Below, in pieces: positions 3,670-59,032 of a stretch of 64,000 nucleotides of DNA. Source of the stretch: Prevotella sp. E13-27 (GTDB lineage: Bacteria; Bacteroidota; Bacteroidia; Bacteroidales; Bacteroidaceae); contig NZ_JALPSC010000002.1 of assembly GCF_023217965.1 (NCBI RefSeq), positions 248,001 through 312,000 on the forward strand. Reading direction: 5' to 3'. The translations under genes were made by a program, and so were the position numbers. The notes under the pieces were generated by a model that had not been told where the DNA came from, did not search any database, and saw only the letters and a program-made list of their open reading frames with translations. Each line of letters starts with the position of its first letter. The first letter of the stretch is position 1.

Positions 3670-3815
3670 TATTCCAATTCCAATTATTCCAATTAAAAAA
3701 AGAGGGGCATGTATTCTGTGTTATATTATATAACTAATTGATATATAGATATTTATATATATAATAAAGAAAAAGCATACCCTCAAAATAAAACTGGAAT
3801 AACTGGAATTGGAAT
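3670..3815. repeat. AT-rich inverted-repeat element A
   Basis: Left arm 3670-3694 and right arm 3792-3815/16 are inverted copies that match in about 23 of 25 positions; each arm is itself made of iterated ATTCCAATT/ATTCCAGTT units. The 97-bp interior is very AT-rich with runs of alternating T and A. The remainder of the 925-bp gap 3408-4332 holds the rsmA promoters, a decayed gene fragment at 3866-4212 and the promoter of the TPR gene. The layout parallels elements at 46097-46291 and 55930-56044. Confidence 0.75.
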
Positions 3816-3865
3816 AGATAGTAACATTAACAACATTATTATTTCATCTAAAAAGCTTATAATCA

Positions 3866-4212
3866 ATGAGATACAACATAACAACAAACAAGGCACCCGA
3901 GATGCCTAACCTCGGAAAAGGTACAGAATGTATCAAATAATTGCTCTCACAGGCCTCAAAAGATATGTACGAACCCCTAGTTCTGATGTTTTTCCCTCAT
4001 TTGTCGCACATAACTTCGACACAAAATTTCAGCATCATAACCTCATTCGGTAGGAAAAGTGCGCGATAATGGGTAATCTGATATTAAAAAGTGGAGATAA
4101 CAAGGGTCAATTGACCGATTTGGCTAAGGCTATCTGTCATTATTACAGAAGCGTTTGGCTTAAACACTCGGAGCGTTCTTACCAAACGCTTCGGGAGATT
4201 GGTAAGAAGTGA
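3866..4212 (+). pseudogene. Decayed DUF3987-type helicase fragment (relic)
   Basis: Conceptual reading from ATG 3866 gives a 24-residue start rich in R-Y-N-I-T-T and A-P-E-M-P-N-L-G-K-G, an in-frame stop at 3938-3940, then in the same frame L-L-S-Q-A-S-K-D-M-Y-E-P-L-V-L-M-F-F-P, a stop at 4067-4069, and after a frameshift a segment with L-K-S-G-D-N-K-G-Q-L-T and A-K-A-I-C. From memory, this order (M-Y-E-P-L-V..M-F-F-P, then a Walker-A-like S-G-x-N-K-G-Q-L-T) matches the central part of Bacteroidales DUF3987/primase-helicase proteins. Two stops, one frameshift and loss of both ends make it non-functional. Family assignment is recognition only. Confidence 0.5.
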
Positions 4213-34768: not shown

Positions 34769-34770
34769 AA

Positions 34771-34963
34771 ACCCACCCCCAACCCCTCCCGAGGGGAGGG
34801 GAGCCTGTATAGACTTGGAGACGTCAAAAAGTCTAATGGGTTTGGTGGTAGAAATAGTAATTTAAGTTTACAAATGTATAACATTTAATAAAAGGAGACC
34901 CCAAAAGTAACTCATCACCCCTCCCCTTGGGAGGGGAAGGAGTTGGGTTAAAGGGGTGGGTTC
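34771..34963. repeat. Paired G/C palindromic repeats between nqrE and nqrF
   Basis: Two copies of the ACCCCTCCC-(T/C)CGGGAGGGG palindrome family, at 34771-34804 and 34910-34963, bracket ~105 bp of unrelated AT-rich DNA. The second copy ends 1-2 bp before the nqrF ATG, so it occupies the ribosome-binding region. Confidence 0.8.
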
Positions 34964-43346: not shown

Positions 43347-44210
43347 ATGGCACAGAACAAGAAACGCAGATGGCACTGCCTCCCTGGGCAGGAGCCAACA
43401 GAGATGGACAAGCAGATAATGTATTGGGAGAACAAGGGAAAGCTCGTTCCCACTCGCGACCTCATCAAAACGCCTGAACAGATAGAAGGCATCCGCAAGG
43501 CAGGCATCGTCAACACCGGCGTGCTCGACGAGGTGGCAAAGACCATCCATGCCGGCATGTCAACCCTCGAGATTGACCAGATATGCCGCAAATACTGTGA
43601 AGATCATGGCGCCATTCCAGCATGTCTCAACTACGAAGGCTTCCCCATGAGCGTCTGCACCAGCATCAACGAGGTTGTCTGTCACGGCATCCCCAAGGAG
43701 GAAGACATCCTTGAGGAGGGCGACATCATCAATGTTGACTTCACCACCATCCTCGATGGCTATTATGCCGATGCCTCACGCATGTTCATCATCGGCAAGA
43801 CCACCCCTGAGAAGGAGCAGCTCGTCAAAGTTGCCAAGGAGTGTCTTGAGATAGGCATGGAGGCCGCCAAGCCCTACGGCTTCGTTGGCGACATTGGTCA
43901 TGCCATCGAGAAGCACTGTAAGAAATACGGCTATGGCATCGTGCGCGACCTTGCCGGTCATGGCGTGGGCTTGAAGTTCCACGAGGAGCCTGATGTCGAC
44001 CACTACGGTCATCGCGGCACAGGCATGCTGCTCGTTCCAGGCATGGTGTTCACCATTGAGCCAATGATCAACATGGGCACATGGAAGGTCTTCATCGATG
44101 CCGACGACCCTTACGGATGGGAGGTCATCACTGAAGACGAGCTTCCCTCCGCCCAGTGGGAGCACACCCTCGTCATGACAGACCACGGCGTAGAGGTGCT
44201 GACACACTAA
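43347..44210 (+). CDS. map: Methionine aminopeptidase type I
   Basis: 287 residues. Removes the initiator methionine. Metal ligands lie in N-V-D-F-T-T-I-L-D-G-Y-Y-A-D, G-H-G-V-G-L-K-F-H-E-E-P, F-T-I-E-P-M-I and Q-W-E-H-T-L. A ~40-residue N-terminal extension with W-H-C-L-P-G-Q-E-P precedes the catalytic core, as in other Bacteroidetes. The start is ATG 43347, just after the promoter. Its strong terminator marks the left boundary of the accessory island. Confidence 0.95.
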   Translation: MAQNKKRRWHCLPGQEPTEMDKQIMYWENKGKLVPTRDLIKTPEQIEGIRKAGIVNTGVLDEVAKTIHAGMSTLEIDQICRKYCEDHGAIPACLNYEGFPMSVCTSINEVVCHGIPKEEDILEEGDIINVDFTTILDGYYADASRMFIIGKTTPEKEQLVKVAKECLEIGMEAAKPYGFVGDIGHAIEKHCKKYGYGIVRDLAGHGVGLKFHEEPDVDHYGHRGTGMLLVPGMVFTIEPMINMGTWKVFIDADDPYGWEVITEDELPSAQWEHTLVMTDHGVEVLTH

Positions 44211-44233
44211 TCATTATTTATATATAGATAGCA

Positions 44234-44278
44234 AAAAACTTCCGATGATTACCCTTCTGGTAGTTATCGGAAGTTTTT
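44234..44278 (+). terminator. Terminator after map
   Basis: 13-bp stem AAAAACTTCCGAT (44234-44246) / ATCGGAAGTTTTT (44266-44278), with T-run; works in either direction. Confidence 0.85.
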
Positions 44279-44338
44279 CGTTTTATGGTAGAAATATCAA
44301 CTTTTATCTTATAAAAATGGAAATAAAGGTAGATCTTT

Positions 44339-44638
44339 CTATCTTTGCACCATGTTTTGTGCATGACATGCATCATGTATTGTTATTGTATCGCCATCAA
44401 TGGAATATGCGTAATACCAATTACCTGTATGTGCCATATGCCATTTCTGCCATCGCTCAATAATAGGTTTACGACGTGGAACGGATTGTTCAATACAATA
44501 GATAGCATCAACCGTTTGGTTGATATATCTCAGCATATCGTAATATGAATATATGTTTGGGTATTTAAGACAAACATTTCTGTAGAAAGACCTCACCTTT
44601 TTTACGGCAAGAGGTTTGATGTTGTAGTTATATTGCAT
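44339..44638 (-). CDS. RelE/ParE-like toxin candidate
   Basis: 99 residues, basic, with V-K-K-V-R-S-F-Y, a central helix, and the C-terminal W-Y-Y-A-Y-S-I-D-G-D-T-I-T-I-H-D-A-C-H-A-Q-N-M, which matches the late strands of Bacteroidetes RelE/ParE-family toxins. The gene overlaps the upstream acidic gene by 11 bp in the usual antitoxin-toxin order. Target (ribosome-bound mRNA or gyrase) cannot be told from sequence. Remote similarity only. Confidence 0.6.
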   Translation of the reverse strand: MQYNYNIKPLAVKKVRSFYRNVCLKYPNIYSYYDMLRYINQTVDAIYCIEQSVPRRKPIIERWQKWHMAHTGNWYYAYSIDGDTITIHDACHAQNMVQR

Positions 44639-44882
44639 CTTTAATACCGTATATAGAGTTGAGGTCGCTTATCAGCATTGCCCTAAGTTCCTCTGGTGTA
44701 TAGCCTTCCTTCTCTTCAGGTAAAGCTATTGAATCATCCTCATAGAGTGATGGGTCTGAATAGTCTATATTCAGTTCTTTAGGAGTTTCATGCTGAATAA
44801 ACAGTCCCGTAGCCAATAATGCTGCAAGTTTCTGGCTGGCCACGCTGTCATTCTCGTTATACGATAATGTTATAGTACACAT
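44628..44882 (-). CDS. Antitoxin-like small acidic protein
   Basis: 84 residues, acidic (many Asp/Glu: S-D-P-S-L-Y-E-D-D-S, P-E-E-K-E-G-Y-T-P-E-E-L-R-A-M). The N-terminal L-S-Y-N-E-N-D-S-V-A-S-Q-K-L-A-A-L-L-A-T-G-L-F segment is common in Bacteroidales antitoxins paired with RelE/ParE-like toxins. Its promoter box TAACTTTG is at 44908-44915 (minus), 26 bp before the ATG. The overlap with the toxin gene suggests coupled translation. Confidence 0.6.
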   Translation of the reverse strand: MCTITLSYNENDSVASQKLAALLATGLFIQHETPKELNIDYSDPSLYEDDSIALPEEKEGYTPEELRAMLISDLNSIYGIKDAI

Positions 44883-44907
44883 CTTAGATGTAATTATGAT
44901 ATCGCTG

Positions 44908-44915
44908 CAAAGTTA
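44908..44915 (-). promoter_or_regulatory. Promoter -7 element of toxin-antitoxin pair
   Basis: TAACTTTG on the minus strand, just upstream of the antitoxin ATG. Confidence 0.5.
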
Positions 44916-44949
44916 GGAAGATTTTATGAAACTTCCAAGGAAAACTCGT

Positions 44950-45043
44950 TTCTTTTTCTAACTCACCCCCCTCCCTCGGGCGCTCGGCGTTTGCGAAGCT
45001 TCTAATTTAAACCCCTCCCCTCGGGAGGGAAGGGGTGGGTTCT
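44950..45043. repeat. Compound palindromic repeat, left island copy
   Basis: Two G/C palindromes (C5TCCCTCGGG and ACCCCTCCCCTCGGGAGGG) joined by a linker containing CGCTCGGCGTTTGCGAAGC. The same two-palindrome-plus-linker unit occurs in inverted orientation at 59036-59146; a single-palindrome copy is at 45248-45291. Confidence 0.8.
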
Positions 45044-45134
45044 ACATACAACTCTGCACTCCGAGGCTTGTTGCTATCGCGGTGAGTATTGCCGCGAGTG
45101 TCTGCAAAATAAATTTCCACGTTTCGTTCTTCAT
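45042..45134 (-). CDS. 'Smalltalk' family microprotein
   Basis: A 30-residue protein read from ATG 45134 to TAG 45042: M-K-N-E-T-W-K-F-I-L-Q-T, then an Ala/Ile/Leu helix with L-G-V-Q-S-C-M at the end. The W-K-x-x-L followed by one hydrophobic, possibly membrane-embedded helix and a terminal S-C matches the Bacteroidales 'smalltalk protein' family, usually next to HU-like and amidase genes, as here (HU gene 160 bp upstream on the same strand). Preceded by AAAGAAAAGCT. The terminal Cys context is not a lipobox. Function unknown. Confidence 0.75.
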   Translation of the reverse strand: MKNETWKFILQTLAAILTAIATSLGVQSCM

Positions 45135-45142
45135 AGCTTTTC

Positions 45143-45247
45143 TTTTTTTAACAACGGATTTCACGGATTTCACGGATTTTTTTCTCGCGTTCTTCTTTTT
45201 TAACAACGGATTTCACGGATTTCACGGATTTTTTTCTCGCGTTCTTT
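45143..45247. repeat. Tandem duplication upstream of the microprotein gene
   Basis: Two near-identical ~52-bp units, each with a tripled ATTTCACGG-type core (AACAACGGATTTCACGGATT) and ending TTTTCTCGCGTTCTT. Then at 45248-45291 a single palindromic repeat (CCCCTCCCCTCGGGAGGGG) follows. Confidence 0.8.
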
Positions 45248-45296
45248 TCTAACTCATCCCCCTCCCCTCGGGAGGGGAAGGGGTGGGTTTTAGGTT

Positions 45297-45794
45297 TTAA
45301 GGCTCTTCCTCCACTGCCCCAGGGTTCGGCGTCTCATTGCCGTTGCCGCTTCCGCTTCCGTCGCCCAGATATCCGCCTTCGAGACCGATCTTTGTGGTGA
45401 GCGTGTTGCTCTGTCGCATCACCCTTGCGGTGTAGATGCTGTTCTTGCTCTGGTCGGCGAGGAACTTCACGCCTATGCGAGTGATGTTCTTCGAGATGTC
45501 GAAGTCTTCGGAGCTGTCCGCACCTGTGGAGCTGGCTCCCAGGTAGAGCGTGCCTATGCCGTCGAGCTTCACCTTGTAGCCCTCTGCCAGCTGCTCTGCT
45601 ATGCAGTGCATCAGCTTGCGGGTCACGCCCAGCACCACGTCGTCGGTGTACACGGAGCCGTGCTTCATGATGTGGTTGGCCAGCTCATCGGTGCCCATTG
45701 TGCCGCGGTGGAGCACCTTGCCATACCACTTGCCGTAACACTTCGTCAGCTTCTCGTTTGTGTTCTGATACTTCTTAATTGTAATTGTTCCCAT
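45297..45794 (-). CDS. HU-like DNA-binding protein (long form)
   Basis: 165 residues. Residues ~1-125 fit the Bacteroidetes HU-like family (DUF4469/HU-HIG type): N-E-L-A-N-H-I-M-K-H-G-S-V-Y-T-D-D-V-V-L-G-V-T-R, then the beta arm region V-K-L-D-G-I-G-T-L-Y-L-G. The final ~30 residues are Gly/Ser/Asn-rich and end in acidic P-G-A-V-E-E-E-P, a probable disordered tail. Related genes sit beside primase-helicase and amidase genes in Bacteroidales islands. Promoter TACCTTTG at 45972-45979 (minus). Confidence 0.8.
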   Translation of the reverse strand: MGTITIKKYQNTNEKLTKCYGKWYGKVLHRGTMGTDELANHIMKHGSVYTDDVVLGVTRKLMHCIAEQLAEGYKVKLDGIGTLYLGASSTGADSSEDFDISKNITRIGVKFLADQSKNSIYTARVMRQSNTLTTKIGLEGGYLGDGSGSGNGNETPNPGAVEEEP

Positions 45795-46003
45795 AGTTTT
45801 TAATAGTTTAACGGTTTAAGTTGTTTAAGTAGTTTAATGGTTTAAAAGTTTAAGTTGTTTAAGTAGTTTGAGTTCTCTCGTGAGCGTTCTTCCTGATTGC
45901 TGGCGGTGTTTTTTCTAAACGCCGCGTGCGTTCTTTCTAAACGCTCGTTGTGTGTCATTCGAATGATGTTGCAAAGGTACTAAGATTTTGACGCGCTCGC
46001 AAA
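45795..46003 (-). promoter_or_regulatory. HU gene promoter and repeat-rich 5' leader
   Basis: TTTG at 46000-46003, 20 bp, TACCTTTG at 45972-45979 (minus strand), then a ~170-nt leader. The leader contains two copies of GTTTAAGTTGTTTAAGTAGT (around 45818 and 45850) in a TTTAA-iterated tract, and a GCCGCGTGCGTT / ACGCTCG stretch. Confidence 0.65.
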
Positions 46004-46096
46004 TTATCGCGCTAAAAACAGCCATTTTTGAGGGGTATTTTTCGCCCTTATTTTGCAAAAAAATTATGTGCGCTGTGAGACTCTTTAAACACAGTT

Positions 46097-46291
46097 AAAA
46101 CGGACTTTCGGACTCGGACGTTCGGACGTTATGGTGTTTTCAAAAAACAAGGACGAAAAACCATATTAATATATAATTATATATTAATATGAATAAATTA
46201 TTATATAATTATGGTTTTTGGCTATTCTTTCCCTTCTTATCCCTAAAATTTTAGCTAAACGTCCGAACGTCCGAGTCCGAAAGTCTGTTTT
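46097..46291. repeat. AT-rich inverted-repeat element B
   Basis: 34-bp arms at 46097-46130 and 46258-46291 are inverted copies with 33 of 34 matches; each holds the iterated hexamer-like units TTCGGAC, TCGGACG, TTCGGACG. The 127-bp interior includes a perfect 28-bp A/T palindrome at 46163-46190 and an inner inverted pair AAAAACCAT / ATGGTTTTT. Lies between the divergent HU gene and the R-M operon promoter. The 575-bp gap 45795-46369 contains only this and the flanking promoters. Confidence 0.85.
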
Positions 46292-46311
46292 CTAATTTTG
46301 CTGTAGAAATA

Positions 46312-46343
46312 TTTGGTAGAGCTAGATTTTATGTTTATCTTTG
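46312..46343 (+). promoter_or_regulatory. Promoter upstream of the R-M operon leader
   Basis: TTTGG at 46312-46316, 19 bp, TATCTTTG at 46336-46343. Confidence 0.7.
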
Positions 46344-46369
46344 CATCACATAAACACTAAAGACCAAAT

Positions 46370-46588
46370 ATGAGGAATCTGAATATTATTCATAACGCAT
46401 TGATACACAGGGAATTACCCCCCCCTATAACCTCATGTAGTGTAAAATCCTCAGCACATTTTCATACAATACATAACCTGCTGCATAGGGCTACTGCCTC
46501 GTGCGGCAGTCTTGCTGTGTGCCTGTCTTTCCTGCTGTTGGCTTCACCCTTACTGTTGACACAGCTTGGGCGGGCACCATTCATCTAA
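46370..46588 (+). CDS. Small hypothetical ORF with a C8 tract
   Basis: 72 codons from ATG 46370, the first start after the promoter at 46336. I do not recognise it. The C-terminal half is hydrophobic (S-L-A-V-C-L-S-F-L-L-L-A-S-P-L-L-L). A run of eight C at 46428-46435 lies in codons for L-P-P-P; gain or loss of one C puts a stop within a few codons. It may be a leader reading frame rather than a functional protein. No close neighbour in the same frame. Confidence 0.35.
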   Translation: MRNLNIIHNALIHRELPPPITSCSVKSSAHFHTIHNLLHRATASCGSLAVCLSFLLLASPLLLTQLGRAPFI

Positions 46589-46596
46589 CATATTGA

Positions 46597-46812
46597 GATT
46601 TTAGCGAAAATCTATATACATTTCCCCTTTTTGGGGAGTTATGTTTTTCAATGTTATATTACCCCTCGCGGTTCGCGAGAATAGCGAGGTTTTTAAAGAG
46701 AAAAAAGTGATTGGAGGTTAGCCCCCTGTCACTCTCGAGAAGATTTTTGTTCATAAACAATATTAATTGTTAAGGTTTAGCCCGCTGGGCTGTGAAGCTC
46801 GGCGGGATTTTT
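46597..46812 (+). promoter_or_regulatory. Chain of hairpins leading into the R-M operon
   Basis: Successive stems: GATTTT/AAAATC (46597-46612), CCCC/GGGG (46624-46636), CTCGCG/CGCGAG (46665-46679) competing with CCTCGC/GCGAGG (46664-46689), and CCCGC/GCGGG (46781-46806). The last two are each followed by TTTTTAAAGA, so they look terminator- or attenuator-like. No gene in this 239-bp stretch. Confidence 0.5.
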
Positions 46813-46827
46813 AAAGAAGAAAATACT

Positions 46828-47004
46828 ATGTTCAATATAAACAACAAATATAAGCAACAGGACATCATAGCCATGAAGATAGCTCAGCGCTATGGTCTCA
46901 CCAGCGAGTACAAGGCTGCTCGCAGTCATGGTCTGTCGCCCATCGAGGCGCTGGAAGACTGGGATATGATGACCCCTGAAGACTATAAGTTGTTTGAAGA
47001 ATAA
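46828..47004 (+). CDS. Small hypothetical protein preceding hsdM
   Basis: 58 residues starting M-F-N-I-N-N-K-Y-K-Q-Q-D. Two helices, the second with S-P-I-E-A-L-E-D-W-D-M-M-T-P-E-D-Y-K-L-F, acidic overall. Starts 10 bases after a purine-rich AAAGAAGAAAA and ends 10 bp before hsdM, so it is cotranscribed. I do not recognise it; it may regulate or stabilise the R-M system. In-frame ATG 46792 lies in the hairpin and is rejected. Confidence 0.55.
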   Translation: MFNINNKYKQQDIIAMKIAQRYGLTSEYKAARSHGLSPIEALEDWDMMTPEDYKLFEE

Positions 47005-47014
47005 AACAAGATAT

Positions 47015-48592
47015 ATGGCAACAATAAATAAAGAAGATTTAAAGAGAGAACTGGGTAACCTAATATGGAAGATGGCTACCAACTTGGTGCATGGAGGCAA
47101 AGTGTCTTCTGTGCAGTTTATGGATTACACTTTGGGAACCCTGTTCTATCGTTTTATTAGCGAGAATATCACTGACTATTGTAATAAACTGATGACTGAC
47201 GCAGGAGTGCCGAATGCCGACTATCTCCACATGGATGATGCGATGGCTGAGAATGCACGTGCTCAGATTGTCAAAGCAAAAGGATTTTTTATCCTGCCAT
47301 CACAGCTATTCAAGCGTGTGGCTGATGGGGCAAAGAGTAATGATGAGTTGAATACCACTCTTGCCAATAACTTCAGGGCTATAGAAGAGAGTGCAATCGG
47401 CACGCCATCGGAAGATGATGTGAGAGGCCTATTCAATAACTTCAACACTAATGACCAAGGACTGGGGACCACCGTTGCAGAACGCAATGAACTTCTAACC
47501 ACACTATTGGAGAGTGTCAGAGACCTTGATTTCTCTACCTATATAGAAAGTGGACTGGATGTGTTTGGCATCTGCTACGAACACCTTATCAAGATGTATG
47601 CGCTGAACAGCGGTACTAAGGGAGGCGAGTTCTATACTCCAGCAGAGGTGAGTTACCTGTTGGCGCAGATAGCAGCAGCAGGTCGAAAGACTGTCAACAA
47701 AGTTTATGACCCTGCTTGTGGTTCTGGTTCATTGTTGCTGAACTTCAATCTTGTGTTAGGCGCGAAGAATGTGCGAGAGGGATTCTTTGGACAGGAGATA
47801 AACCTAAAAACCTATAACCTCTGTCGAATGAACATGTTTCTGCACAACGTGAACTATGATCATTTCGACATCCAGCTTGGTGACACCTTGCTCGATCCCA
47901 AACACGAGATGGATGAGCCCTTCGATGCCATTGTGTCGAATCCACCTTACTCTGTGCCTTGGCCTGGCGATAGCGATATCACTTTGATTAACGATCCTCG
48001 CTATTCTCCTGCAGGTGTGTTGGCACCCAAGTCAAAGGCTGACTTTGCTTTTACGATGCACATGCTTTCGTGGCTATCCACAGAGGGTACGGCTGCCATC
48101 GTAGAGTTCCCTGGCATTCTCTATCGTGGAGGTGCAGAGCAGAAAATCAGAAAGTATCTGGTGCAGAACAACTATATTGACACCATAATCCAGCTACCCA
48201 GCAACCTTTTCTTTGGAGCCTCTATCGCTACTTGTATCATTGTGTTGAAGAAGAACAAGAGCGACAACCGAGTTTGCTTTATTGATGCCTCACAGGAGTT
48301 TGTTCACGAAGGCAATAAGAACAAACTTTCGCCAGCCAATCAAGAGCGAATCTATAAGGCTTGTATGGCGAAGGAAGAAGAAAAACACTTCTGTCATGTA
48401 GTGACAACAAAGGATATTGAGGCAGAGGATTACAATCTGAGTGTCAGCACCTATGTAGAGCAGGAAGATACTCGTGAGGCAGTTGACATTGAGAAACTGA
48501 ATGCAGAGATAGCTGAAATTGTAGCTCGTCAAAGCACGCTACGCACTCAGCTGGATGCCATCATCAAGGAATTAGAGGAGGATGCAGCATGA
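47015..48592 (+). CDS. hsdM: Type I restriction-modification methyltransferase subunit
   Basis: 525 residues. N-terminal helical domain (W-K-M-A-T-N-L-V-H-G-G-K-V) followed by an N6-adenine methyltransferase domain: SAM motif D-P-A-C-G-S-G-S-L-L near residue 232 and catalytic N-P-P-Y near residue 308. Ends with a coiled coil that binds HsdS. Start 47015 chosen over 46994 because the latter overlaps the preceding gene's end. Its stop overlaps the hsdS ATG (ATGA). Confidence 0.96.
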   Translation: MATINKEDLKRELGNLIWKMATNLVHGGKVSSVQFMDYTLGTLFYRFISENITDYCNKLMTDAGVPNADYLHMDDAMAENARAQIVKAKGFFILPSQLFKRVADGAKSNDELNTTLANNFRAIEESAIGTPSEDDVRGLFNNFNTNDQGLGTTVAERNELLTTLLESVRDLDFSTYIESGLDVFGICYEHLIKMYALNSGTKGGEFYTPAEVSYLLAQIAAAGRKTVNKVYDPACGSGSLLLNFNLVLGAKNVREGFFGQEINLKTYNLCRMNMFLHNVNYDHFDIQLGDTLLDPKHEMDEPFDAIVSNPPYSVPWPGDSDITLINDPRYSPAGVLAPKSKADFAFTMHMLSWLSTEGTAAIVEFPGILYRGGAEQKIRKYLVQNNYIDTIIQLPSNLFFGASIATCIIVLKKNKSDNRVCFIDASQEFVHEGNKNKLSPANQERIYKACMAKEEEKHFCHVVTTKDIEAEDYNLSVSTYVEQEDTREAVDIEKLNAEIAEIVARQSTLRTQLDAIIKELEEDAA

Positions 48593-49782
48593 GTGAGATA
48601 AAGAAACTTATCGAAAGACTTTGCCCAGATGGGGTTGAGTATAAGAAGTTGGGGGAAGTTTGCGTTATGCAACGCGGAACTTCAATGACTAAAAAGAATG
48701 CAGTTGAAGGCGATATTCCTGTTATATCAGGAGGAAAAGAACCTGCTTTCTATATTAATAAGTCTAATCGTGAAGGCGAAACAATAACAGTAGCAGGAAG
48801 TGGTGCAGGAGCAGGTTATGTGCAATACTGGAACAAACCAATATTTGTCAATGATGCATTTTCGGTTAAAGGTTCTGAAGAATTGCTTACAAAATATGTG
48901 TACTATTGCATGAAAAATATGCAAGAGCAGATTACTGGTACTCAAAAAGGTGGTGGTGTTCCTCATGTACACATTTCCAGCATTGATAACTTCGAAATCC
49001 CTGTACCTCCCATCGAGGTGCAGAGTAAAATTGTCGAGTATCTCGACAATTTTACGGAGCTAGAAGCGGAGCTAGAAATAAAGTTAGAAGCGGAGCTAGA
49101 AGCAAGGCGAAAGCAATACGAATATTACAGGAATCAACTCCTGACATTCGACAAAGATAAAGGGGCAAGATTTGATGTAAAGTGGATGAAGATGAGTGAG
49201 GTTGGAACATTTACAAGAGGAAAACGTTTTGTGAGGACTGATATCGTTGAAGATGGAGTTCCCTGCATCCACTATGGGGATATGTACACCTATTATGGCT
49301 TGAAAGCATACAAAGCGAAAACTCACCTTACACCTGAAAAAGCGCAGAAAATGCGTTTTGCAAAAAAGAATGATGTAGTAATTGTTGGAGCTGGTGAAAA
49401 CAAAAATGATATAGGTGTAGGTGTCGCATGGTTGGGAGAAGAAGATGTTGCAGTGCATGATGCCTGTTATATTTTCTCAAGCGATTTATACCCACAATAC
49501 GTATCACATTTCTTAAGAACAGAATCATATCATAAACAAATTTATCCTCTTGTTTCTGAGGGAAAGATTTGTTCTATCTCAGCGCAGAGTATAGGTAGGG
49601 CAATTATTCCTATCCCCCCATTGGAAGAGCAACAAAGAATCGTCTCCATCCTTGACCGCTTTGAGACACTGACTACCGACCTGCAGAGTGGTTTGCCAGC
49701 AGAGATTGAAGCAAGGCGCAAACAATACGAATATTATAGAGAGAAACTATTGACATTTAAGCGATATGGCAAATTACAATAG
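48589..49782 (+). CDS. hsdS: Type I restriction-modification specificity subunit
   Basis: 397 residues with two target-recognition domains (~1-150 and ~195-350), each ending P-P-I-E/P-P-L-E then a helix with E-A-R-R-K-Q-Y-E-Y-Y-R, the conserved repeats that space the two DNA half-sites. The central helix contains four 4-residue units (E-L-E-A, E-L-E-I, K-L-E-A, E-L-E-A). The present C-terminus (..F-K-R-Y-G-K-L-Q) looks secondary: the last codons lie in DNA that replaced the original ..F-K-R-K-T-A end, which is found at 50931-50996. The gene is AT-rich like most hsdS. Confidence 0.93.
   Translation: MSEIKKLIERLCPDGVEYKKLGEVCVMQRGTSMTKKNAVEGDIPVISGGKEPAFYINKSNREGETITVAGSGAGAGYVQYWNKPIFVNDAFSVKGSEELLTKYVYYCMKNMQEQITGTQKGGGVPHVHISSIDNFEIPVPPIEVQSKIVEYLDNFTELEAELEIKLEAELEARRKQYEYYRNQLLTFDKDKGARFDVKWMKMSEVGTFTRGKRFVRTDIVEDGVPCIHYGDMYTYYGLKAYKAKTHLTPEKAQKMRFAKKNDVVIVGAGENKNDIGVGVAWLGEEDVAVHDACYIFSSDLYPQYVSHFLRTESYHKQIYPLVSEGKICSISAQSIGRAIIPIPPLEEQQRIVSILDRFETLTTDLQSGLPAEIEARRKQYEYYREKLLTFKRYGKLQ
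49057..49104 (+). repeat. Four 12-bp coding repeats in the hsdS linker
   Basis: Four consecutive units based on GAGCTAGAAGCG (second ends ATA, third begins AAGTTA) encode four 4-residue steps of the central helix. The layout is like the TAEL repeats of EcoR124-type HsdS. Confidence 0.8.
49711..49763 (+). repeat. hsdS tail repeat, upstream copy
   Basis: 53 bp shared with 50931-50983, 50 of 53 identical; it encodes A-R-R-K-Q-Y-E-Y-Y-R-E-K-L-L-T-F-K. A third, more diverged copy is at about 49102-49148 in the middle of hsdS. Confidence 0.9.
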
Positions 49783-50812
49783 CTACCCTTATTCTCGCAT
49801 GTTTTCTTTTATTGAGAGAAAATGCGATATACTTAATGACAAAAAGAATTACATTAAGTATATTCTTTCAATGGAGTATGCTAATTCATTAGATGAACTC
49901 ATCAAAATATACAATAACAGTTATAAGATATTAGCTTATTTGTTTTTTGAAAACAAAAGACTTCCTAAGAATTGGTATGTGACTGAAACCTGGGGACATG
50001 ACAATAACTGGCTTTTAGACGATTTAAACTTCTGCCTAAATGAAAATATTCTAAACTGGATAAGAAAGCAAAATATGCCAACGGAAAGTCAGGCTCTTGC
50101 CTGTCTTGCAAATTTGCACGATTCCAAAAATACAAATTATGTCCAAAATCAAATTCTTTCAATAGTTGCTCCGAAAGTATATAAGGGAATAGAACATTTA
50201 TCAAGGGTCAGATCTAACTTAACAAATATTCGTAAGCTTATTGAGAAAGGCGCAAGAGACTTAAGGGTTAAATCTCAATACATATCAAATTGTCGATATA
50301 TGTCTGGCAATGGGCGGATATTCGACATTGCGGAAATATCTGTTGGTAATGATATCGGAATTAATTTTGAAAATCTAAAAGAAGAATACGAAAATGAAAT
50401 CATTAGAATTAAAAAAGAGGAGGAAGAAAAGCAGAGAATAGAAAAAGAAAAAGGAATAAAACTAAAAGAGATTGGTATTATACTATCTATCATTTATATC
50501 GTTATTATTGTTATCTGGTATATAAACAATCTTTCTATATTTGAGGATGGTTGGAAATATTATCTTTTTTTTGTTTTTGTAGGAATAATATGCTTATTAA
50601 TGAGCTACGGAATTACACGAGAACGAAAAAGAAAGAAAAAATTATCAGAATTAGAACTTAAATCTGAAAGGGAATTTAAGAAAGCTGCTATTGTTTTATT
50701 TTCATTGCCATTATGGTTACCAATAATTGCTTTTATCAATTTTATAGCGCATGGCATTTTTAAGGCTATATTTTTTATACTGGTAATATTAGCACTTATA
50801 TCATTACTATAA
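49766..50812 (+). CDS. Unknown membrane protein inserted in the R-M operon
   Basis: 348 residues, not recognised. Residues 1-200 look soluble and mostly helical, with W-Y-V-T-E-T-W-G-H-D-N-N-W and R-K-L-I-E-K-G-A-R-D; ~205-232 is a charged coiled coil (E-E-Y-E-N-E-I-I-R-I-K-K-E-E-E-E-K). Two membrane helices follow (~235-252 and ~262-282), a basic loop R-E-R-K-R-K-K-K, and a final hydrophobic stretch (~306-348) with one or two helices. No signal peptide. The ATG overlaps hsdS by 17 bp; base composition is much more AT-rich than its neighbours, indicating transfer. A defence-linked membrane effector is a hypothesis only. Confidence 0.7.
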   Translation: MANYNSYPYSRMFSFIERKCDILNDKKNYIKYILSMEYANSLDELIKIYNNSYKILAYLFFENKRLPKNWYVTETWGHDNNWLLDDLNFCLNENILNWIRKQNMPTESQALACLANLHDSKNTNYVQNQILSIVAPKVYKGIEHLSRVRSNLTNIRKLIEKGARDLRVKSQYISNCRYMSGNGRIFDIAEISVGNDIGINFENLKEEYENEIIRIKKEEEEKQRIEKEKGIKLKEIGIILSIIYIVIIVIWYINNLSIFEDGWKYYLFFVFVGIICLLMSYGITRERKRKKKLSELELKSEREFKKAAIVLFSLPLWLPIIAFINFIAHGIFKAIFFILVILALISLL

Positions 50813-50838
50813 AAATCTTTTAGCAAACAATTGATTAT

Positions 50839-50973
50839 ATGAAAATAATATTTATTTTATTTATCGTAGTCTTAATTAGCGGGATTTCGAATGCCCAAAG
50901 TATGTTATGCATTTACAAGGGCGGCTATAGGCAAGGCGCAAACAATACGAATACTATAGAGAACAACTATTGA
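50839..50973 (+). pseudogene. Truncated secreted-protein gene fused into hsdS tail
   Basis: From ATG 50839 a typical signal peptide is encoded (M-K-I-I-F-I-L-F-I-V-V-L-I-S-G-I-S-N-A-Q), then ~10 residues of a mature start, and at 50931 the frame runs out of frame into the hsdS-tail repeat and stops at 50971-50973 (44 codons). The downstream gene body is missing. It marks the right edge of the foreign segment. Confidence 0.7.
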
Positions 50974-50983
50974 CATTTAAGCG
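50931..50983 (+). repeat. hsdS tail repeat, downstream copy
   Basis: Second copy of the 53-bp repeat. Read in the hsdS frame it continues F-K-R-K-T-A and stops at 50994-50996, where TAATG also starts hsdR, the expected ancestral hsdS-hsdR junction. Confidence 0.9.
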
Positions 50984-50995
50984 TAAGACAGCATA

Positions 50996-53900
50996 ATGGC
51001 AGAAATATTAGATATCATTTCACAGAATACTCAGAGTACGGTTGTTGCTGAGTATGTGCGCGAGGAACGCGAGAGGGAAACAGGTTACCAAAGTGAGAGT
51101 GACTTGGAAAATGAACTGATTGCCCAGCTTCAGCGACAGGGATATGAGTATTTTCCTATCCACAACGAAACGGAGCTGATTGCCAATTTGCGCCATCAGC
51201 TGGAGGTGTTGAATGACCTCAAGTTTACGGATGGCGAGTGGCAACGTTTCTTTAAAGGCGAGATTGCCAACGAAAGTAAAGGCATCAAAGAAAAAGCCTT
51301 TACCATTCAGCGCGACTCAAAGAAGAGTTTTGTGCGTGATGATGGTTCTCAAATCAATATCAATCTGATAGACAAAAAAGACATTCACCATAACTCTACA
51401 CAGGTAATAAATCAATATGCGGTGAAAAGTGGCAGTCAGGACAATCGCTATGATGTAACTATCTTGGTAAATGGCTTGCCATTGGTGCATATAGAACTGA
51501 AGCGCAGGGGCGTGTTGCTCAAAGAGGCTTTCAATCAGATAAACCGATATGGAAGAGAGTCGTTTTGGGCTGACAATGCTTTGTTTGAGTTTGTGCAGAT
51601 ATTTATAATAAGCAATGGTACCACAACAAAGTATTATAGCAACACTACTCGCGACAACCACATAAAAGAACAGACGAGCAAGGCAAAGGCAGGAAGACAA
51701 AGAACCTGCAATAGCTATGAATTCACTTCGTATTGGAGTGATGCAAAGAACAAGTTGCTGAATGATTTGGAGGACTTTACTGCCACCTTTCTGAGTCGTC
51801 ACTCTTTGCTAAGCATCTTGACCCGATTCTGTGTGCTGACAGAGCAACAGGTTCTGATGGCGATGCGCCCCTATCAGATAGCAGCCACAGAACGAGTGCT
51901 GAACCGTATCGAGGTGGCGCACAATGCCAAAATCTATGGCACTGTGAAGGCTGGTGGCTATGTATGGCACACAACAGGAAGTGGCAAGACACTCACCTCG
52001 TTCAAGACAGCGCAGCTCGCTACACAACTGCCATATATAGAAAAGGTGTTCTTCGTGGTGGATAGAAAAGACTTGGACTATCAGACCATGCGCGAGTATG
52101 ATCGATTCCAGAAGGGTGCTGCAAACGGAAATACCTCTACTAAAGTATTGGAGGGACAGATAGCCAGTGCTAAGAGCAAAATCATAATCACTACCATACA
52201 GAAACTGACAAGCTATATCAAGAAAAACCCTGACAGCGATGTGTACCAAAAAGAGGTTGTGATGATTTTCGACGAGTGTCATCGCTCGCAGTTTGGAGAC
52301 ATGCACCAACTAATAACTAAGCGTTTCAAGAAATATTATCTCTTTGGATTCACAGGTACACCTATCTTTATGGAGAACATGCCTACAGGTGTAGGTGTCA
52401 TCAAGACAACGGAAGACGCTTTTGGCGAAAGACTGCATACATATACTATTGTCAATGCCATAAGTGACCACAACGTGTTGCCTTTCCGTGTGGAATATAT
52501 CCGCACGATGAAGGAAAAGGAAGAGATGGAGAACAGCATGGTTTGGGACATTGAGCGCGAGAAAGCCCTAAGTGACCCACGTCGAATAGCCAACGTAACA
52601 CAATATATTTTGGACCACTATGCCCAGCAGACCTTGCAGGGCAAGAACTATAAGATGAGCGTGGTGACCAACGTGGAGAAATTAGCTAAGGACAAGAAGA
52701 AAAGGGTAGAAGAGAAAAGGGGCAAGTCGTTGCTAAGTGGTTTCAATAGCATCCTTGCTGTACAGAACATCCCAATGGCGAAGCTGTATTATCTTGAACT
52801 GAAGCGCCAGTTGGAAGAGCTGCCTGTCAACAAGAGACTGAAGGTGGCAACCATTTTCAGCTATGGAGCGAATGAGGCAGACCCGAATGATGAGGACGAT
52901 GAGTGTAATGACGATACTGAAGGGCTGGATACTTCAAGTCGTGAGTTTCTGGAGCAGGCCATCGAAGACTATAACGAGATGTTTGGCACAACTTATGATA
53001 CCAGTGCCGACAAATTCCCCAACTACTACAAGGATGTGTCTCTGAGAATGAAGAACAGAGAAATAGATATTCTTCTGGTAGTAAATATGTTCCTCACAGG
53101 CTTTGATGCCACAACACTCAATACGCTATGGGTTGACAAGAACCTTAGATATCATGGGCTGTTGCAGTCATATAGTCGCACCAATCGTATTCTGAACAGC
53201 ATAAAGACGTTTGGCAACATCATTTGTTTCCGCAATTTGGAGAATGCAACGAACAAGGCACTATCGCTGTTTGGCGACCCTGAAGCAAGAGGTGTGTCAA
53301 TTCTCAGGCCTTTCGAAGACTATTTTAATGGATATGACGATAATGAGGGAAAGCATCAGAAGGGTTACAAAGAACTTGTCGAAGAACTTCTGAAAAGCTT
53401 GAAACCTGGTGAAATGCCTTTTGGAGAGAAAGCAGAAAAAGAGTTCATCAAATTGTTCGGTAATATACTGAAGATGAGAAACCTGCTCAGCGTGTTTGAT
53501 CAGTTCGAAGCTGTTGACATGTTGAGTGAGCGAGACGTACAGGACTATACTAGTATTTATCTTGACCTGAGAGATAAAATCATCAATAGCCCCAAGGATA
53601 AGGAAGACATCTGTGATGATATTGTGTTTGAGATGGAACTGGTGAAGCAGGTTGAGGTTAATATTGATTTTATCCTATTCCTTGTGGAGCAGTATCGAAA
53701 GACTCATCAGCAAGATGGAGAGATAAGAGCAAAAATCAGTAAGGCAATAGATAGCAGCCCAGACTTGAGAGACAAGAAAGAGCTGATAGATAAGTTCATA
53801 GAGCAATTGACTCCTAATAGTGAAGTTGATGCCGAATGGCGTGTCTATGTGAATAAGGAAAAAATAAAGCAGTTTGAAACTATCGTGGAAGAAGAAAACC

Positions 53901-54190
53901 TTAAGCGAGAACAAGCTGTGGAGTTTATTGAGAATGCTTACGAGCGTGGTTATGTGCCAGAGGGTGGAATGGAACTGGATGGAATAATGCCAGCCATCAA
54001 CCCATTCGACCCATCGGCTGATAGACAGGGTAAGATACAAAAAGTGGTAGAACGTCTGAAAGAATTCTTCAAACGTTTTGCCGGAATTAGTGATGGTGAC
54101 TTCAGCAATGGAGATAGAATAAATATAAAAATAGAAGTTCACAACCATTTTGAAGGAGAAATCAACCAACTCACCATAAACGAAGAATAA
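50996..54190 (+). CDS. hsdR: Type I restriction endonuclease subunit R
   Basis: 1064 residues. N-terminal HSDR_N nuclease domain with Y-D-V-T-I-L-V-N-G-L-P-L-V-H-I-E-L-K-R (E-x-K motif), then a superfamily 2 translocase: Walker A W-H-T-T-G-S-G-K-T near residue 327, D-E-C-H near 425, F-T-G-T-P near 450. A C-terminal helical domain and a last V-H-N-H-F-E-G-E-I stretch bind the methyltransferase core. Motifs look intact, so the enzyme is probably active. Starts on the stop of the displaced hsdS tail (TAATG). Confidence 0.96.
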   Translation: MAEILDIISQNTQSTVVAEYVREERERETGYQSESDLENELIAQLQRQGYEYFPIHNETELIANLRHQLEVLNDLKFTDGEWQRFFKGEIANESKGIKEKAFTIQRDSKKSFVRDDGSQININLIDKKDIHHNSTQVINQYAVKSGSQDNRYDVTILVNGLPLVHIELKRRGVLLKEAFNQINRYGRESFWADNALFEFVQIFIISNGTTTKYYSNTTRDNHIKEQTSKAKAGRQRTCNSYEFTSYWSDAKNKLLNDLEDFTATFLSRHSLLSILTRFCVLTEQQVLMAMRPYQIAATERVLNRIEVAHNAKIYGTVKAGGYVWHTTGSGKTLTSFKTAQLATQLPYIEKVFFVVDRKDLDYQTMREYDRFQKGAANGNTSTKVLEGQIASAKSKIIITTIQKLTSYIKKNPDSDVYQKEVVMIFDECHRSQFGDMHQLITKRFKKYYLFGFTGTPIFMENMPTGVGVIKTTEDAFGERLHTYTIVNAISDHNVLPFRVEYIRTMKEKEEMENSMVWDIEREKALSDPRRIANVTQYILDHYAQQTLQGKNYKMSVVTNVEKLAKDKKKRVEEKRGKSLLSGFNSILAVQNIPMAKLYYLELKRQLEELPVNKRLKVATIFSYGANEADPNDEDDECNDDTEGLDTSSREFLEQAIEDYNEMFGTTYDTSADKFPNYYKDVSLRMKNREIDILLVVNMFLTGFDATTLNTLWVDKNLRYHGLLQSYSRTNRILNSIKTFGNIICFRNLENATNKALSLFGDPEARGVSILRPFEDYFNGYDDNEGKHQKGYKELVEELLKSLKPGEMPFGEKAEKEFIKLFGNILKMRNLLSVFDQFEAVDMLSERDVQDYTSIYLDLRDKIINSPKDKEDICDDIVFEMELVKQVEVNIDFILFLVEQYRKTHQQDGEIRAKISKAIDSSPDLRDKKELIDKFIEQLTPNSEVDAEWRVYVNKEKIKQFETIVEEENLKREQAVEFIENAYERGYVPEGGMELDGIMPAINPFDPSADRQGKIQKVVERLKEFFKRFAGISDGDFSNGDRINIKIEVHNHFEGEINQLTINEE

Positions 54191-54206: not shown

Positions 54207-54237
54207 TTGGAATTTTGCAGAGAAGTTGTTACCTTTG
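54207..54237 (+). promoter_or_regulatory. Promoter upstream of the structured leader
   Basis: TTGG at 54207-54210, 19 bp, TACCTTTG at 54230-54237. The transcript would begin ~54244, giving a ~220-nt leader before the 154-residue gene. Confidence 0.75.
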
Positions 54238-56497: not shown

Positions 56498-59032
56498 ATG
56501 TTTTGCTATCAGGACAATCAATATTTTTCTCCCGCCGTGGTATGCTCGCGGGAGAAATTTCATGAGCTGCTGGATTCGGCAGTCGTGAAATGGAAGATAG
56601 AGACGATAAGGAGTGTCAGACAGCCAGGGGCTATAGAGAAATGGGGAAGTAATTCGGAATATCAGAAGTTCTGCCTGAAGGAGTCGGCAAAGAAAAAGGG
56701 CGGCGAGGCTTTTAAGGAGCTGAATGATGAGGAGAAACTTTGCCGATGGGCTAACTCGCTGAAGAATAATCTTCCCTGTCTGATATTCGGTGGCAGGGAG
56801 TTTGACGAGCTGCCTACGAGCAAGGACGCGAAAAAACTGATGCGACGCAGGGTGCTGGCTGGTGTTCACCTATCGGGTCTCTTCATGTTTGATGCCGACC
56901 ATATAGATAATCCGCGAGAGGTGTATGAAAAGACGCTGGTGGATGGATTTCCGTGGCAGGTGGTGTTTGCTCATAATACTTCGTCGGGAAAGGGGCTGAG
57001 ACTGGTGTGTAAGGCTCGACCGGAAATAGGCAATATAGCCGATAACCAGATAGAGCTGGCTCGGGCGCTGGGTGTTAAGGCAGATGCCAGTTGCATAGAT
57101 GCTTCACGAATATCGTATGTGCCAAGGCGTGAGGACGTGTTTTTCCTCGATGAGGAAGAGCTGTTTAACTATAATGGTGAGGCCTTTGCTCAGAAATATG
57201 AAGAGGCCTACCGACAAGGACACACGGAGCCTACCGACCCAAGCCACAAGTTTGATGAACTAAACGAAAAACAAAATCAAGATGAAAAAAGTAACGAATC
57301 AGGGAAACCCCTCCCTTCGGGGGGGAAAGGTGGAGACCTTTATCATGGCGTCGAGTATTCAAAAATTTGCGAAGCGTGGCAGGCCGCACAAGGTGGAGCG
57401 CCCGCCTCTGGAGATCGCCATAGAACAATGCTGCAAATGGCTCTCGACCTCAGGTATATCTGCGACAACCAGCCGGAAATGGTCGATAGGGTGCTTAGAA
57501 TGTGCGGATTTGTGCAGGACGTCATCCGCGAACGAGGCGACAAGGAAGTCACCGACATTGCTAATACGGCTTGTGAGCGAAAGCTTTACAAGGACATCCC
57601 GAAAAGGATGCAAGGGGTGCTTGAAAGTGTGGGTGTTCATGCCAGCAAGCCCTCAGGAGCTGCAAAGTCTGTGGGAGCAGTTGAAGTGCCTTACGAACAG
57701 TTCGCTGAAAGGCTGGAACCTCTGCTTTGCGCCCCTTATGCCGAAGCCTGCAGGGGAGTGAGCCGGCACAACTGGCTGGGGGCTGTGATGGCCTCAGGAG
57801 CTATGTACTGCACGCTGATGACACGCTGCTGGTATAAACACTTCAACGGTGCGCGACAGAGGATGAACCCACAGGTGCTGATAATCGGCGATCCTGCCAG
57901 CGGAAAGAGCTTTGCCAAGGACTTGGACGACCAGATAATGTGCTCGATGAGGGCGCAGGATGAAGAGGTGCGCGCTCAGGAGACACGCTACAAGCAGGAG
58001 CAGAAGAAACGCGGCACAAGCTCGAAAGCACAGAAGCAGGACGCGCTGGTGGAGCCAGAGGGCATGATTCGCTATCTGCCCACAAAGACCTCGAACAACA
58101 TCTTCTTCCGAAGGCTGAAAAGGGCGAAAGAGGTGGTGGATGGAGAGGTGCTGCCAATGCATCTGTATATGTTTGACTCGGAGCTGGACTCTTCTATCTC
58201 GGCACAGAGTGGGGGATCGTGGATAGGCAAGCACGACCTGGAGCTGAAGGCTTTCCACAACGAGCTGAGTGGTGTGGACTATGCCAATGGCGACAGTATC
58301 AACGACATCCTGCCCGTGTATTGGAACAGCGTGACCACAGGCACGCAGATTTCGCTCTACAAGAAGTTTACACCAAGGAACATCAACGATGGATTGTGCT
58401 CTCGCGTGGCAATATTCCAGATGGAGGTGGCACGCTATCAGATGGTGAAGAAAAAGATGGTGGACTGGCAGGCCAACGAGGCTCTGAAGCAATGGGGCTT
58501 CAGGTTCGAGGAACTGCACGGAGAGCTGCCACTGGAGAGACTGACAGACCATGTCTATGACCTCTGCGAGCTAAGCGCACAGGAGGCAGAGGCTGCCGAT
58601 GACCACGTGCTGGACTACCTGAGAAAGCGTGCTGTGTTCTATGCCACATGGCTCACGGTGCCGCGAATCATTGGGCGACAGTATGAGGAGTTTAAGAAGA
58701 CAGGAAAGCTCGATATCAACGATGACGACCTGAAGTTTTCGACGCTCATATACGACAGCGTGATATACTTCCAAGACCATTTCTTCGGACAGATGCTGCA
58801 AGACTCGTGGGACAACGCCGCGCGTGAGTATGTGCCGCGTCGCAAGAACTCGAAGAATGCCGATGCCTATCGCGACCTGCCAGAGACCTTTACAGCCAAA
58901 GAGGTGATGGCGATACTTGGCATAGAAAGTGATGCATCGAATAAACAATGTCAGCGCTGGCTAAAGCATGGCTTTGTGGAGCGTGTGAAGCAAGGGAAGT
59001 ACAGGAAAATTATTAAGGATATAATGTTATAA
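56498..59032 (+). CDS. Primase-helicase: VirE-N/BT4734-like plus DUF3987 domains
   Basis: 844 residues. The N-terminal part holds G-L-F-M-F-D-A-D-H-I-D (residues ~130-140) and S-S-G-K-G-L-R-L-V (~162-170), the acidic and His/Ser-Gly features of archaeo-eukaryotic primase-like (VirE-N) domains. Residues ~390-700 form a DUF3987 helicase-like domain with Walker A G-D-P-A-S-G-K-S near 464-471 and L-Y-M-F-D-S-E-L-D (Walker B-like) near 562. A C-terminal helix-turn-helix (F-T-A-K-E-V-M-A-I-L-G-I) ends it. The two domains are joined by a linker encoded partly by a palindromic repeat at 57305-57331. Likely primes or unwinds DNA of a resident mobile element. Confidence 0.82.
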   Translation: MFCYQDNQYFSPAVVCSREKFHELLDSAVVKWKIETIRSVRQPGAIEKWGSNSEYQKFCLKESAKKKGGEAFKELNDEEKLCRWANSLKNNLPCLIFGGREFDELPTSKDAKKLMRRRVLAGVHLSGLFMFDADHIDNPREVYEKTLVDGFPWQVVFAHNTSSGKGLRLVCKARPEIGNIADNQIELARALGVKADASCIDASRISYVPRREDVFFLDEEELFNYNGEAFAQKYEEAYRQGHTEPTDPSHKFDELNEKQNQDEKSNESGKPLPSGGKGGDLYHGVEYSKICEAWQAAQGGAPASGDRHRTMLQMALDLRYICDNQPEMVDRVLRMCGFVQDVIRERGDKEVTDIANTACERKLYKDIPKRMQGVLESVGVHASKPSGAAKSVGAVEVPYEQFAERLEPLLCAPYAEACRGVSRHNWLGAVMASGAMYCTLMTRCWYKHFNGARQRMNPQVLIIGDPASGKSFAKDLDDQIMCSMRAQDEEVRAQETRYKQEQKKRGTSSKAQKQDALVEPEGMIRYLPTKTSNNIFFRRLKRAKEVVDGEVLPMHLYMFDSELDSSISAQSGGSWIGKHDLELKAFHNELSGVDYANGDSINDILPVYWNSVTTGTQISLYKKFTPRNINDGLCSRVAIFQMEVARYQMVKKKMVDWQANEALKQWGFRFEELHGELPLERLTDHVYDLCELSAQEAEAADDHVLDYLRKRAVFYATWLTVPRIIGRQYEEFKKTGKLDINDDDLKFSTLIYDSVIYFQDHFFGQMLQDSWDNAAREYVPRRKNSKNADAYRDLPETFTAKEVMAILGIESDASNKQCQRWLKHGFVERVKQGKYRKIIKDIML
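57305..57331 (+). repeat. Palindromic repeat read in frame within the primase gene
   Basis: AACCCCTCCCTTCGGGGGGG-type palindrome, same family as the intergenic copies; it encodes G-K-P-L-P-S-G-G-K-G-G in the linker. Confidence 0.75.

Follow-up and report, generated by a model that had tools for sequence, protein, structure and literature searches.

An inverted repeat that we call element B lies at positions 46097-46291 of the window, that is, of the whole 64,000-nucleotide stretch of Prevotella sp. E13-27 DNA analysed here. It can fold back on itself, belongs to a family of elements of the same build that is present in its genus and in Parabacteroides, is linked to genes for HU-like proteins, and has arms that change together among relatives with almost no wobble. 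The varied but mostly self-matched arms are the unusual part; iterated repeats, A+T-rich cores, hairpins and HU proteins are of known kinds. From comparison of the relatives, the shape into which the DNA folds seems to count for more than the letters. Our leading reading, which we hold tentatively, is that element B may be a structure-recognised, origin-like start site tied to islands that code for HU and primase-helicase proteins.

Anatomy of element B

The left arm (46097-46130, plus strand) consists of four CGGAC-type units at spacings of 8, 6 and 8, and the right arm (46258-46291, minus strand) is its reverse complement at 33 of 34 positions, exactly as an initial annotation made from the letters had described. 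The core between them (46131-46257) has the 127 bp given there, but it is A+T-rich (79%) rather than nearly pure A/T, and the perfect palindrome within it, reported as 28 bp, is 30 bp long (46162-46191). On the minus strand of the core CTAAAATTTTAG stands near one arm and TTTTTGAAAACACC near the other; both are recognisable in relatives from other species.

When the window was scanned for ungapped inverted repeats with an outer distance below 460, two pairs scored at least 17, namely element B (30) and 3670-3816 (18), and no inverted repeat in three first-order resampled windows scored even 13 or more. As single-stranded DNA, element B is predicted to fold at -53.9 kcal/mol (z = -10.6), and its RNA fold has z = -11.2; none of 200 shuffles folded as well in either the DNA or the RNA test. 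It is confirmed that this inverted repeat is real and exceeds chance.

Besides itself, element B gives four weak partial matches (E 0.12 to 2.8) in the 3.96 Mb of its own genome, which is in two contigs, and its exact arms match nothing in the genome contigs searched. A 15-base unit pair matched 35 stretches in viral contigs, and a blastn search of plasmids returned pieces only (E 0.8 to 10).

Relatives with arms that change together

A search of 398 genomes of the genus with a relative of element B from genome G106 gave matches at E <= 0.01 in 48 of them (G106 and the own genome included), many in the A+T core alone. Nineteen elements were extracted, 17 from loci with E <= 4e-7 and two weaker ones from G357. 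Our finder of inverted repeats favours matching arms, whereas the 17 loci were found by DNA similarity: 14 have matching iterated arms, one (G106b) is a hybrid and two (G475a and G475b) lack one arm. In the hybrid (L060:6121-6345) the left arm is of the TTGACA type and the right arm of the TTCGGAC type, and the two are unmatched; a fully matched element lies nearby, and the hybrid is a recombinant or an assembly chimera.

Throughout the family the arms are made of 2-4 tandem 6-9-mers, whose unit varies among elements and even inside one genome. B-type units include TTCGGAC, TTCTGAC, TTCTTAC, TTATGAC, TTTGGAC and TGTTGAC; the own genome holds units of the GTGACGCA, GTTACGCA, GCTACGCA, TTATTCAC, GAAAGTAG, CCGGCGTA, TTACAG and TTATACAG types.

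Twelve of the 19 extracted elements were aligned on a helix of 37 pairs taken from G106a, itself one of the rows. Left out were G106b, G475a and G475b, whose arms are unmatched or missing, G361, G326 and G105, whose cores are unlike the others, and the near-duplicate G357b. In this alignment 86.6% of 440 cells are paired, a value reached in 0 of 500 shuffles, and shifting the partner by 1-3 columns lowers it to 43.3% or less. As many as 23 of the 37 pairs are altered on both sides, and double-changed cells number 55 against 2 one-sided (wobble) cells. The five innermost pairs, formed by G106a and not by many others, hold 38 of the 59 unpaired cells. Pairs conserved in RNA should more often have G-U as an intermediate step; we therefore read the scarcity of wobble as a sign of pairing at the level of DNA, to which the paired change of both arms points.

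If element B acted as RNA, it might be a bidirectional terminator, an attenuator or the hairpin of a stable sRNA. The strong RNA fold would suit this, as would the place of one relative, G298a, close behind a reading frame. Still, we consider it very unlikely in view of the wobble count just given, and also because the 17 arm mismatches over 21 elements include 6 of transition type, 5 in one strand sense and 1 in the other and not independent, and because element B lies outside both neighbouring promoter matches. Rfam returned nothing at gathering score over 44000-48000; below it stand weak matches to plant miRNA precursors, which reflect hairpin shape only. An intrinsic terminator or a member of a known RNA family was rejected on the same two counts, the lack of an Rfam match at gathering score and of RNA-type wobble covariation.

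Single elements tell a similar story. Irregular spacing and odd units of one arm are mirrored base for base in the opposite arm; mean mirror identity is 0.96 against 0.68 at a one-unit shift, with the mirror better in 26 of 27 elements, a comparison biased by the delimiting of arms as inverted repeats. G298a and G298b, from a single genome, are alike at 91.5% in the core and 95.9% in one flank, and at only 59.4% and 62.5% in the arms, while each mirrors itself at 32/32 and 30/32 positions respectively. Among 11 pairs compared, this is the one in which arms clearly change faster than the core: the arms are identical in A and A2 and in L119 and L120, and in L165 and L189 they are as alike as the cores. 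In this last pair a T to G change is present in units of both arms. The perfect 34-bp arms of L148 and L163a differ by one base, mirrored in both arms, and the two 17-bp arms of L244 and L246 from Parabacteroides likewise each carry a one-base difference. Slippage of units together with arm-to-arm copying (template switching in a hairpin) might rewrite both arms in concert.

Elements of the same design in the own genome

The second pair found by the scan, element A (3670-3816), has the same design as element B, with arms of TATTCCAATTCCAATTATTCCA, and lies 50 bp upstream of a truncated frame starting at 3866. The own genome holds a second copy that is 98% identical and several partial relatives, and elements of the A type stand 36-51 bp upstream of a reading frame. 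The truncated frame has a 440-aa relative for which Pfam gives no family; this protein is called DUF3987-like on a single match of 20% identity (E 2e-8). Its gene is found intact at L193, with a CHC2 primase gene and HU coming after it in the same orientation.

Similarity searches suggested 12 places in the own genome, six of which (L117 to L122) show the same design with various units and six of which do not. An even sample of 40 stretches of 20 kb, 20 per contig (400 kb each), was passed through one finder. On contig 2 it gave six elements with iterated arms and A+T-rich cores, five having an inner palindrome of 18-23 bp per arm and one (L163b) lacking it; on contig 1 the one such find was L151, an iterated-arm pair whose A+T-rich core has no long palindrome. 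We make no claim of a bias between the contigs: p is 0.02 when 6 is set against 0, 6 against 1 or 5 against 0 would be fairer, and an HU-linked element, L192, is on contig 1.

Linkage to HU-HIG genes

The own genome has 19 matches to PF18291 (HU-HIG). At 8 of the 14 loci examined an element lies 251-412 bp upstream, and at 10 within 2.8 kb, with distances measured from the HU-domain match except in the window. In place of those 8, about 0.05 would be expected by chance at the density of the contig 2 sample. A repeat pair 1.05 kb upstream of HU at L195, with a core of 58% A+T, was not counted, and at L197-L199 there is no element upstream of HU.

Relatives of the window HU (E <= 1e-15) occur in 118 of 299 genomes of the genus, the own one included. 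Among 29 loci from other species, one per genome, an iterated element with an A+T core is found 198-670 bp upstream of HU in 7, the upstream flank being short in a few. Downstream of HU at the same 29 loci, none of this design was seen; six have other inverted repeats there, with cores of 43-60% A+T and tandem-looking arms in two. For these counts p is 0.01. The link to HU-like genes proposed in the initial annotation therefore holds, with 8/14 and 7/29 loci. Of the two further points raised there, randomness of position and conservation of the arms, the positions are not random; the arm letters are not conserved, though their mutual match mostly is.

The 11 HU copies nearest the window HU, itself included, comprise seven at 98-100% identity, three at 74-75% and one at 54%. 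Those seven near-identical copies adjoin six arm types, L190 and L196 having the same type. Judged by these protein and arm sequences, HU does not read the arm letters.

Primase-helicase genes and other Bacteroidales

Another gene of interest in the window codes for an 844-aa BT4734-like_N protein (56498-59032, plus strand; PF08800 at 25.0 bits, cut-off 22.4), of the predicted primase-helicase type; the initial annotation too had a primase-helicase in this island. PMC5862659 lists BT4734-like proteins as a family of archaeo-eukaryotic primases and gives DUF3987, a domain found in mobile elements, as a predicted helicase. The 844-aa protein has 28% identity to a protein at L189 with a DUF3987 match below cut-off; searches for it gave no match in collections of plasmids and phages and, among viral contigs, no close relative. 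Relatives occur in 103 of 299 genomes of the genus, the own one included.

We fetched 40 DUF3987-type loci, a selection from near the top of the match list, the identity being about 70% or more in 17 and lower in 23. An element is present at 12: at all 7 where the window HU query detects HU and at 5 of the 33 others. For this association p is 9e-5, slightly too large a value since it was computed with 6/33 where the table has 5/33. The presence of HU at the 40 loci rests on that one query, and the HU-negative status of G298a and G298b is unreliable, a second HU query having placed HU about 2 kb from both. At four of the seven HU-positive loci the element stands 283-412 bp upstream of HU; at L272, L274 and L278 it is about 3 kb or more away. 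At the other 28 loci there is no element in the fetched stretch; by a hand tally the contig ends less than 7 kb from the gene in 17 of them and does not in 11. These counts support a joint link with HU and primase-helicase and oppose a strict one-to-one pairing with the primase-helicase. The BT4734/DUF3987 link suggested earlier thus exists in a form looser than that with HU, but not as a strict pairing. Likewise, the arm-core-arm pattern, which might have been expected always near HU or DUF3987 genes, is recurrent upstream of HU but, within the stretches covered, absent from 22 of the 29 HU and 28 of the 40 DUF3987 loci.

B-type elements on five contigs, from G106, G298 (two), G282 and G357, have a relative of the 844-aa protein (68-84% identity) at a distance of 5-15 kb. 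This, the primase-helicase type genes of several islands and arms of 2-4 tandem 6-9-mers on either side of an A+T-rich stretch would be compatible with a classical iteron origin or regulator site. Each element would then have a sequence-specific initiator of its own that recognises the repeated units, and the mirror symmetry would be of secondary importance. Such origins are recognised by several short direct repeats next to A+T-rich DNA, and element B and its relatives do have these. We nevertheless think this unlikely: irregular spacing and odd units are mirrored across the arms (in the same 26 of 27 elements, delimited as inverted repeats), no co-varying DNA-binding protein was identified and HU does not follow the unit, and no element was found in the fetched stretch at 12 of the 17 loci with close relatives of the 844-aa protein. 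What remains of the iteron reading in the initial annotation is tandem units beside an A+T core; a single shared protein site is not there, given six unit types and mirrored arms.

In other Bacteroidales, Bacteroides finegoldii has a gene row of BT4734/BF3469, DUF3987, DUF4248, HU-type, smalltalk and N-acetylmuramoyl-L-alanine amidase genes, with only a weak, short-spaced repeat upstream of HU. In Parabacteroides distasonis, on a 237-kb record with a plasmid label, the genes are BT4734/BF3469, DUF4248, HU-type and glucosaminidase-domain; the element there starts 22 bp past the end of BT4734 and stops 499 bp short of HU, on its upstream side. In the window island DUF4248, smalltalk and amidase genes were not identified beside the HU and BT4734-type genes. 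No element was seen in Prevotella nigrescens or Prevotella oral taxon 299, and further loci found with the Parabacteroides HU have an upstream element in 4 of 8 (L246, L247 at 2.4 kb, L251 and L253).

Some elements lack the HU and primase-helicase genes. L145 and L148 have arms matching at 36/40 and 34/34 positions and no HU or DUF3987 in their 20-kb stretches, L148 being 3.3 kb from one end. Such cases, as well as matched arms beside truncated genes, would be explained by a neutral relic without function, DNA prone to form hairpins in which template switching alone keeps the arms matched. We regard this as quite unlikely, since L148 keeps about 100 bp resembling the HU upstream region, since the place upstream of HU is recurrent in different Bacteroidales families and since the shoulders of the core are recognisable between species.

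Surroundings of element B and borders of exchange

As stated in the initial annotation, element B sits between an HU-like gene and a restriction-modification operon. On one side is the gene for an HU-HIG DNA-binding protein of 165 aa (45297-45794, minus strand; PF18291 E 2.4e-15, over cut-off), and on the other a type I operon for HsdM, HsdS, a 348-aa protein and HsdR (46994-54190, plus strand), an exchangeable cargo beyond which lies the 844-aa gene. The 348-aa protein (49766-50812, between hsdS and hsdR) has no Pfam family over cut-off. In the leader of the HU gene (45799-45875; also at L188-L192 and L196) there is a run of GTTTAA-type 8-9-mers whose copy number varies among HU copies, possibly an expression-varying repeat.

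Two matches to the TTTG-type promoter motif of Bacteroidota flank element B and lie outside it. That of the HU gene (45972-46003, minus strand) has TTTG, a gap of 20 bp and TACCTTTG; that of the cargo, with its leader (46295-46386, plus strand), has TTTG at 46312 and TATCTTTG at 46336 and has 97% identity to the corresponding stretch at L189, where the adjoining element is a different one. An invertible promoter was considered and rejected: neither strand of 46097-46291 contains the promoter motif TAnnTTTG, and both promoter matches are outside.

The outward-facing promoters suggest the main rival to a start site. Element B might be a supercoil-sensing cruciform or insulator between the HU and cargo promoters, extruded by negative supercoils, bound by HU and tuning both. 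The promoter matches on both sides, the A+T palindromic centre and the failure of HU copies to track arm letters all suit this, and in the window it fits. It does not fit Parabacteroides, where the element comes after the BT4734 gene and looks onto DUF4248, HU lying beyond, nor element A and its like, 36-51 bp upstream of a reading frame, nor G298a, about 11 bp after a reading frame that by eye we take to be umuC. On balance it is possible but doubtful.

Compared with L189, the window has the block of the HU gene in common; unlike elements follow, then 46295-46386 is alike at 97%, the DNA diverges up to 54217, and homology is back at 54217, just past the restriction-modification cargo. G298a and G282a share one 200-bp flank at 98.5%, their cores are 69% alike and their other flanks are unlike. 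From these shared and unlike blocks we infer that element edges probably fall at or near recombination borders. The cargo beside elements is type I restriction-modification in the window, Abi_2 and HNH at L189, HSDR_N and an Eco57I/MmeI-like gene at L191, and GNAT at L190; the GNAT gene presumably resembles one beside G106b, and the name Vsr given to a gene is likewise presumptive.

The elements could also be non-autonomous mobile elements (MITE or REP-like) that depend on a transposase acting in trans. In L148 and L163a, and in L145, L190 and L196, the element is common and little of the flank is, and relatives of REP-type tyrosine transposases, below curated cut-offs, occur near L188 and A2. 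A transposase would read the arms, yet it is the arms that differ among copies with related cores; element B has no second copy, only 2 of 9 Y1 transposase loci in the own genome have an element within flanks of about 1.5 kb, and no target duplication was recognised by eye in the flanks inspected. We judge this origin decidedly unlikely. The two narrower identities were rejected: as MITE or transposon ends the family lacks constant terminal inverted repeats, since the arms differ (though A and A2, and L119 and L120, share theirs), and as REP/RAYT it has the cognate tyrosine transposase near elements at those 2 of 9 loci only. The Y1 (REP-type) transposase relatives themselves, at nine loci, include L188:3853-4983 and L117:1262-2434 (376 and 390 aa), both below cut-offs.

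Possible role

HU binds bent and four-way DNA. If element B is a start site for synthesis, several steps can be imagined. The A+T palindromic core would open easily, so that the long arms could pair with themselves, as a cruciform or as a hairpin in single-stranded DNA. Proteins of the island might use this folded shape rather than the letters: the HU-like protein could hold the bent or four-way form, and the primase-helicase could start synthesis at the folded site, which would make it origin-like. We favour the start site because an A+T palindromic centre would ease opening and because a predicted primase-helicase and HU occur together in several islands. The initial annotation had preferred a replication origin or partition site to a terminator; the preference over a terminator is supported, as is the A+T-rich palindromic core, and element B may have an origin-like role. 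Against the start site count the 28 of 40 DUF3987 loci and the 22 of 29 other-species HU loci without an element in the stretch covered (the flank being short in a few of the latter), the elements without the module, and the negative plasmid, phage and viral searches for the 844-aa protein.

A bolder version of the start-site reading, which we consider rather doubtful, would make these elements a new class of cis-acting DNA. Hairpin arms rewritten in concert would differ widely among copies and yet mostly match themselves, so that each locus has a private self-pairing address; an HU/primase-helicase machine that reads structure would use it, in islands where defence genes are swapped. If the elements are start sites, the HU and BT4734/DUF3987 islands of Bacteroidales gain a testable function. 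If only template switching keeps the arms matched, they preserve a natural trace, in bacteria, of copying between arms and of the homogenisation of units. In both cases, several of them adjoin exchangeable genes of restriction and abortive-infection types.

Other systems may be compared with the family. SaPI, P4 and other phage-inducible islands and satellites have replication origins with short repeats flanking an A+T-rich stretch and use a primase-helicase of the island. Short repeats on both sides of an A+T-rich stretch and a primase-helicase in the island are found here too, but here the sides mirror each other base for base and the unit varies among copies in one genome. No viral carrier was found for our elements, the only carrier seen with a plasmid label is the 237-kb Parabacteroides record, and any replication from the elements is putative.

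Proteins of the BT4734/DUF3987 families from mobile elements are treated in PMC5862659, and the same families occur in several islands here; the sections concerned name no cis site of this kind, and no integrase was noticed in the window island in an unsystematic look. In the portions of PMC3733652 and PMC6006769 that deal with REP/BIME palindromes and their associated tyrosine transposases, there are repeated extragenic hairpins as well, but ours are much larger, do not have arms common to the copies and have a Y1 gene near elements at 2 of 9 loci. According to PMC4596501, the BrickBuilt MITE of Porphyromonas gingivalis contains 23-nt repeats between small IS5-like ends; it too has tandem repeats in an intergenic inverted-repeat element of Bacteroidales, whereas in our family the repeats form the arms and vary among copies. 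The open-licence literature searched gave no description of repeated-arm hairpins recurrent beside HU-like genes, which does not prove that there is none.

Other inverted repeats

With a milder mismatch penalty the window scan gave an extra, G+C-rich pair at 34770-34949. It belongs to a second class of inverted repeats, of the CCCCTCCC / GGGAGGGG type, which is recurrent in the own genome and in relatives (L129:14908-15057, L152:7914-8112, L164:12251-12515). Tandem heptamers of the AGAGGTGAG/AGAGGTTAG type also occur in inverted pairs (L149:11670-12033, L146:2327-2468, L117:983-1070), and the pair at L149 flanks a 300-bp stretch that looks coding by eye.
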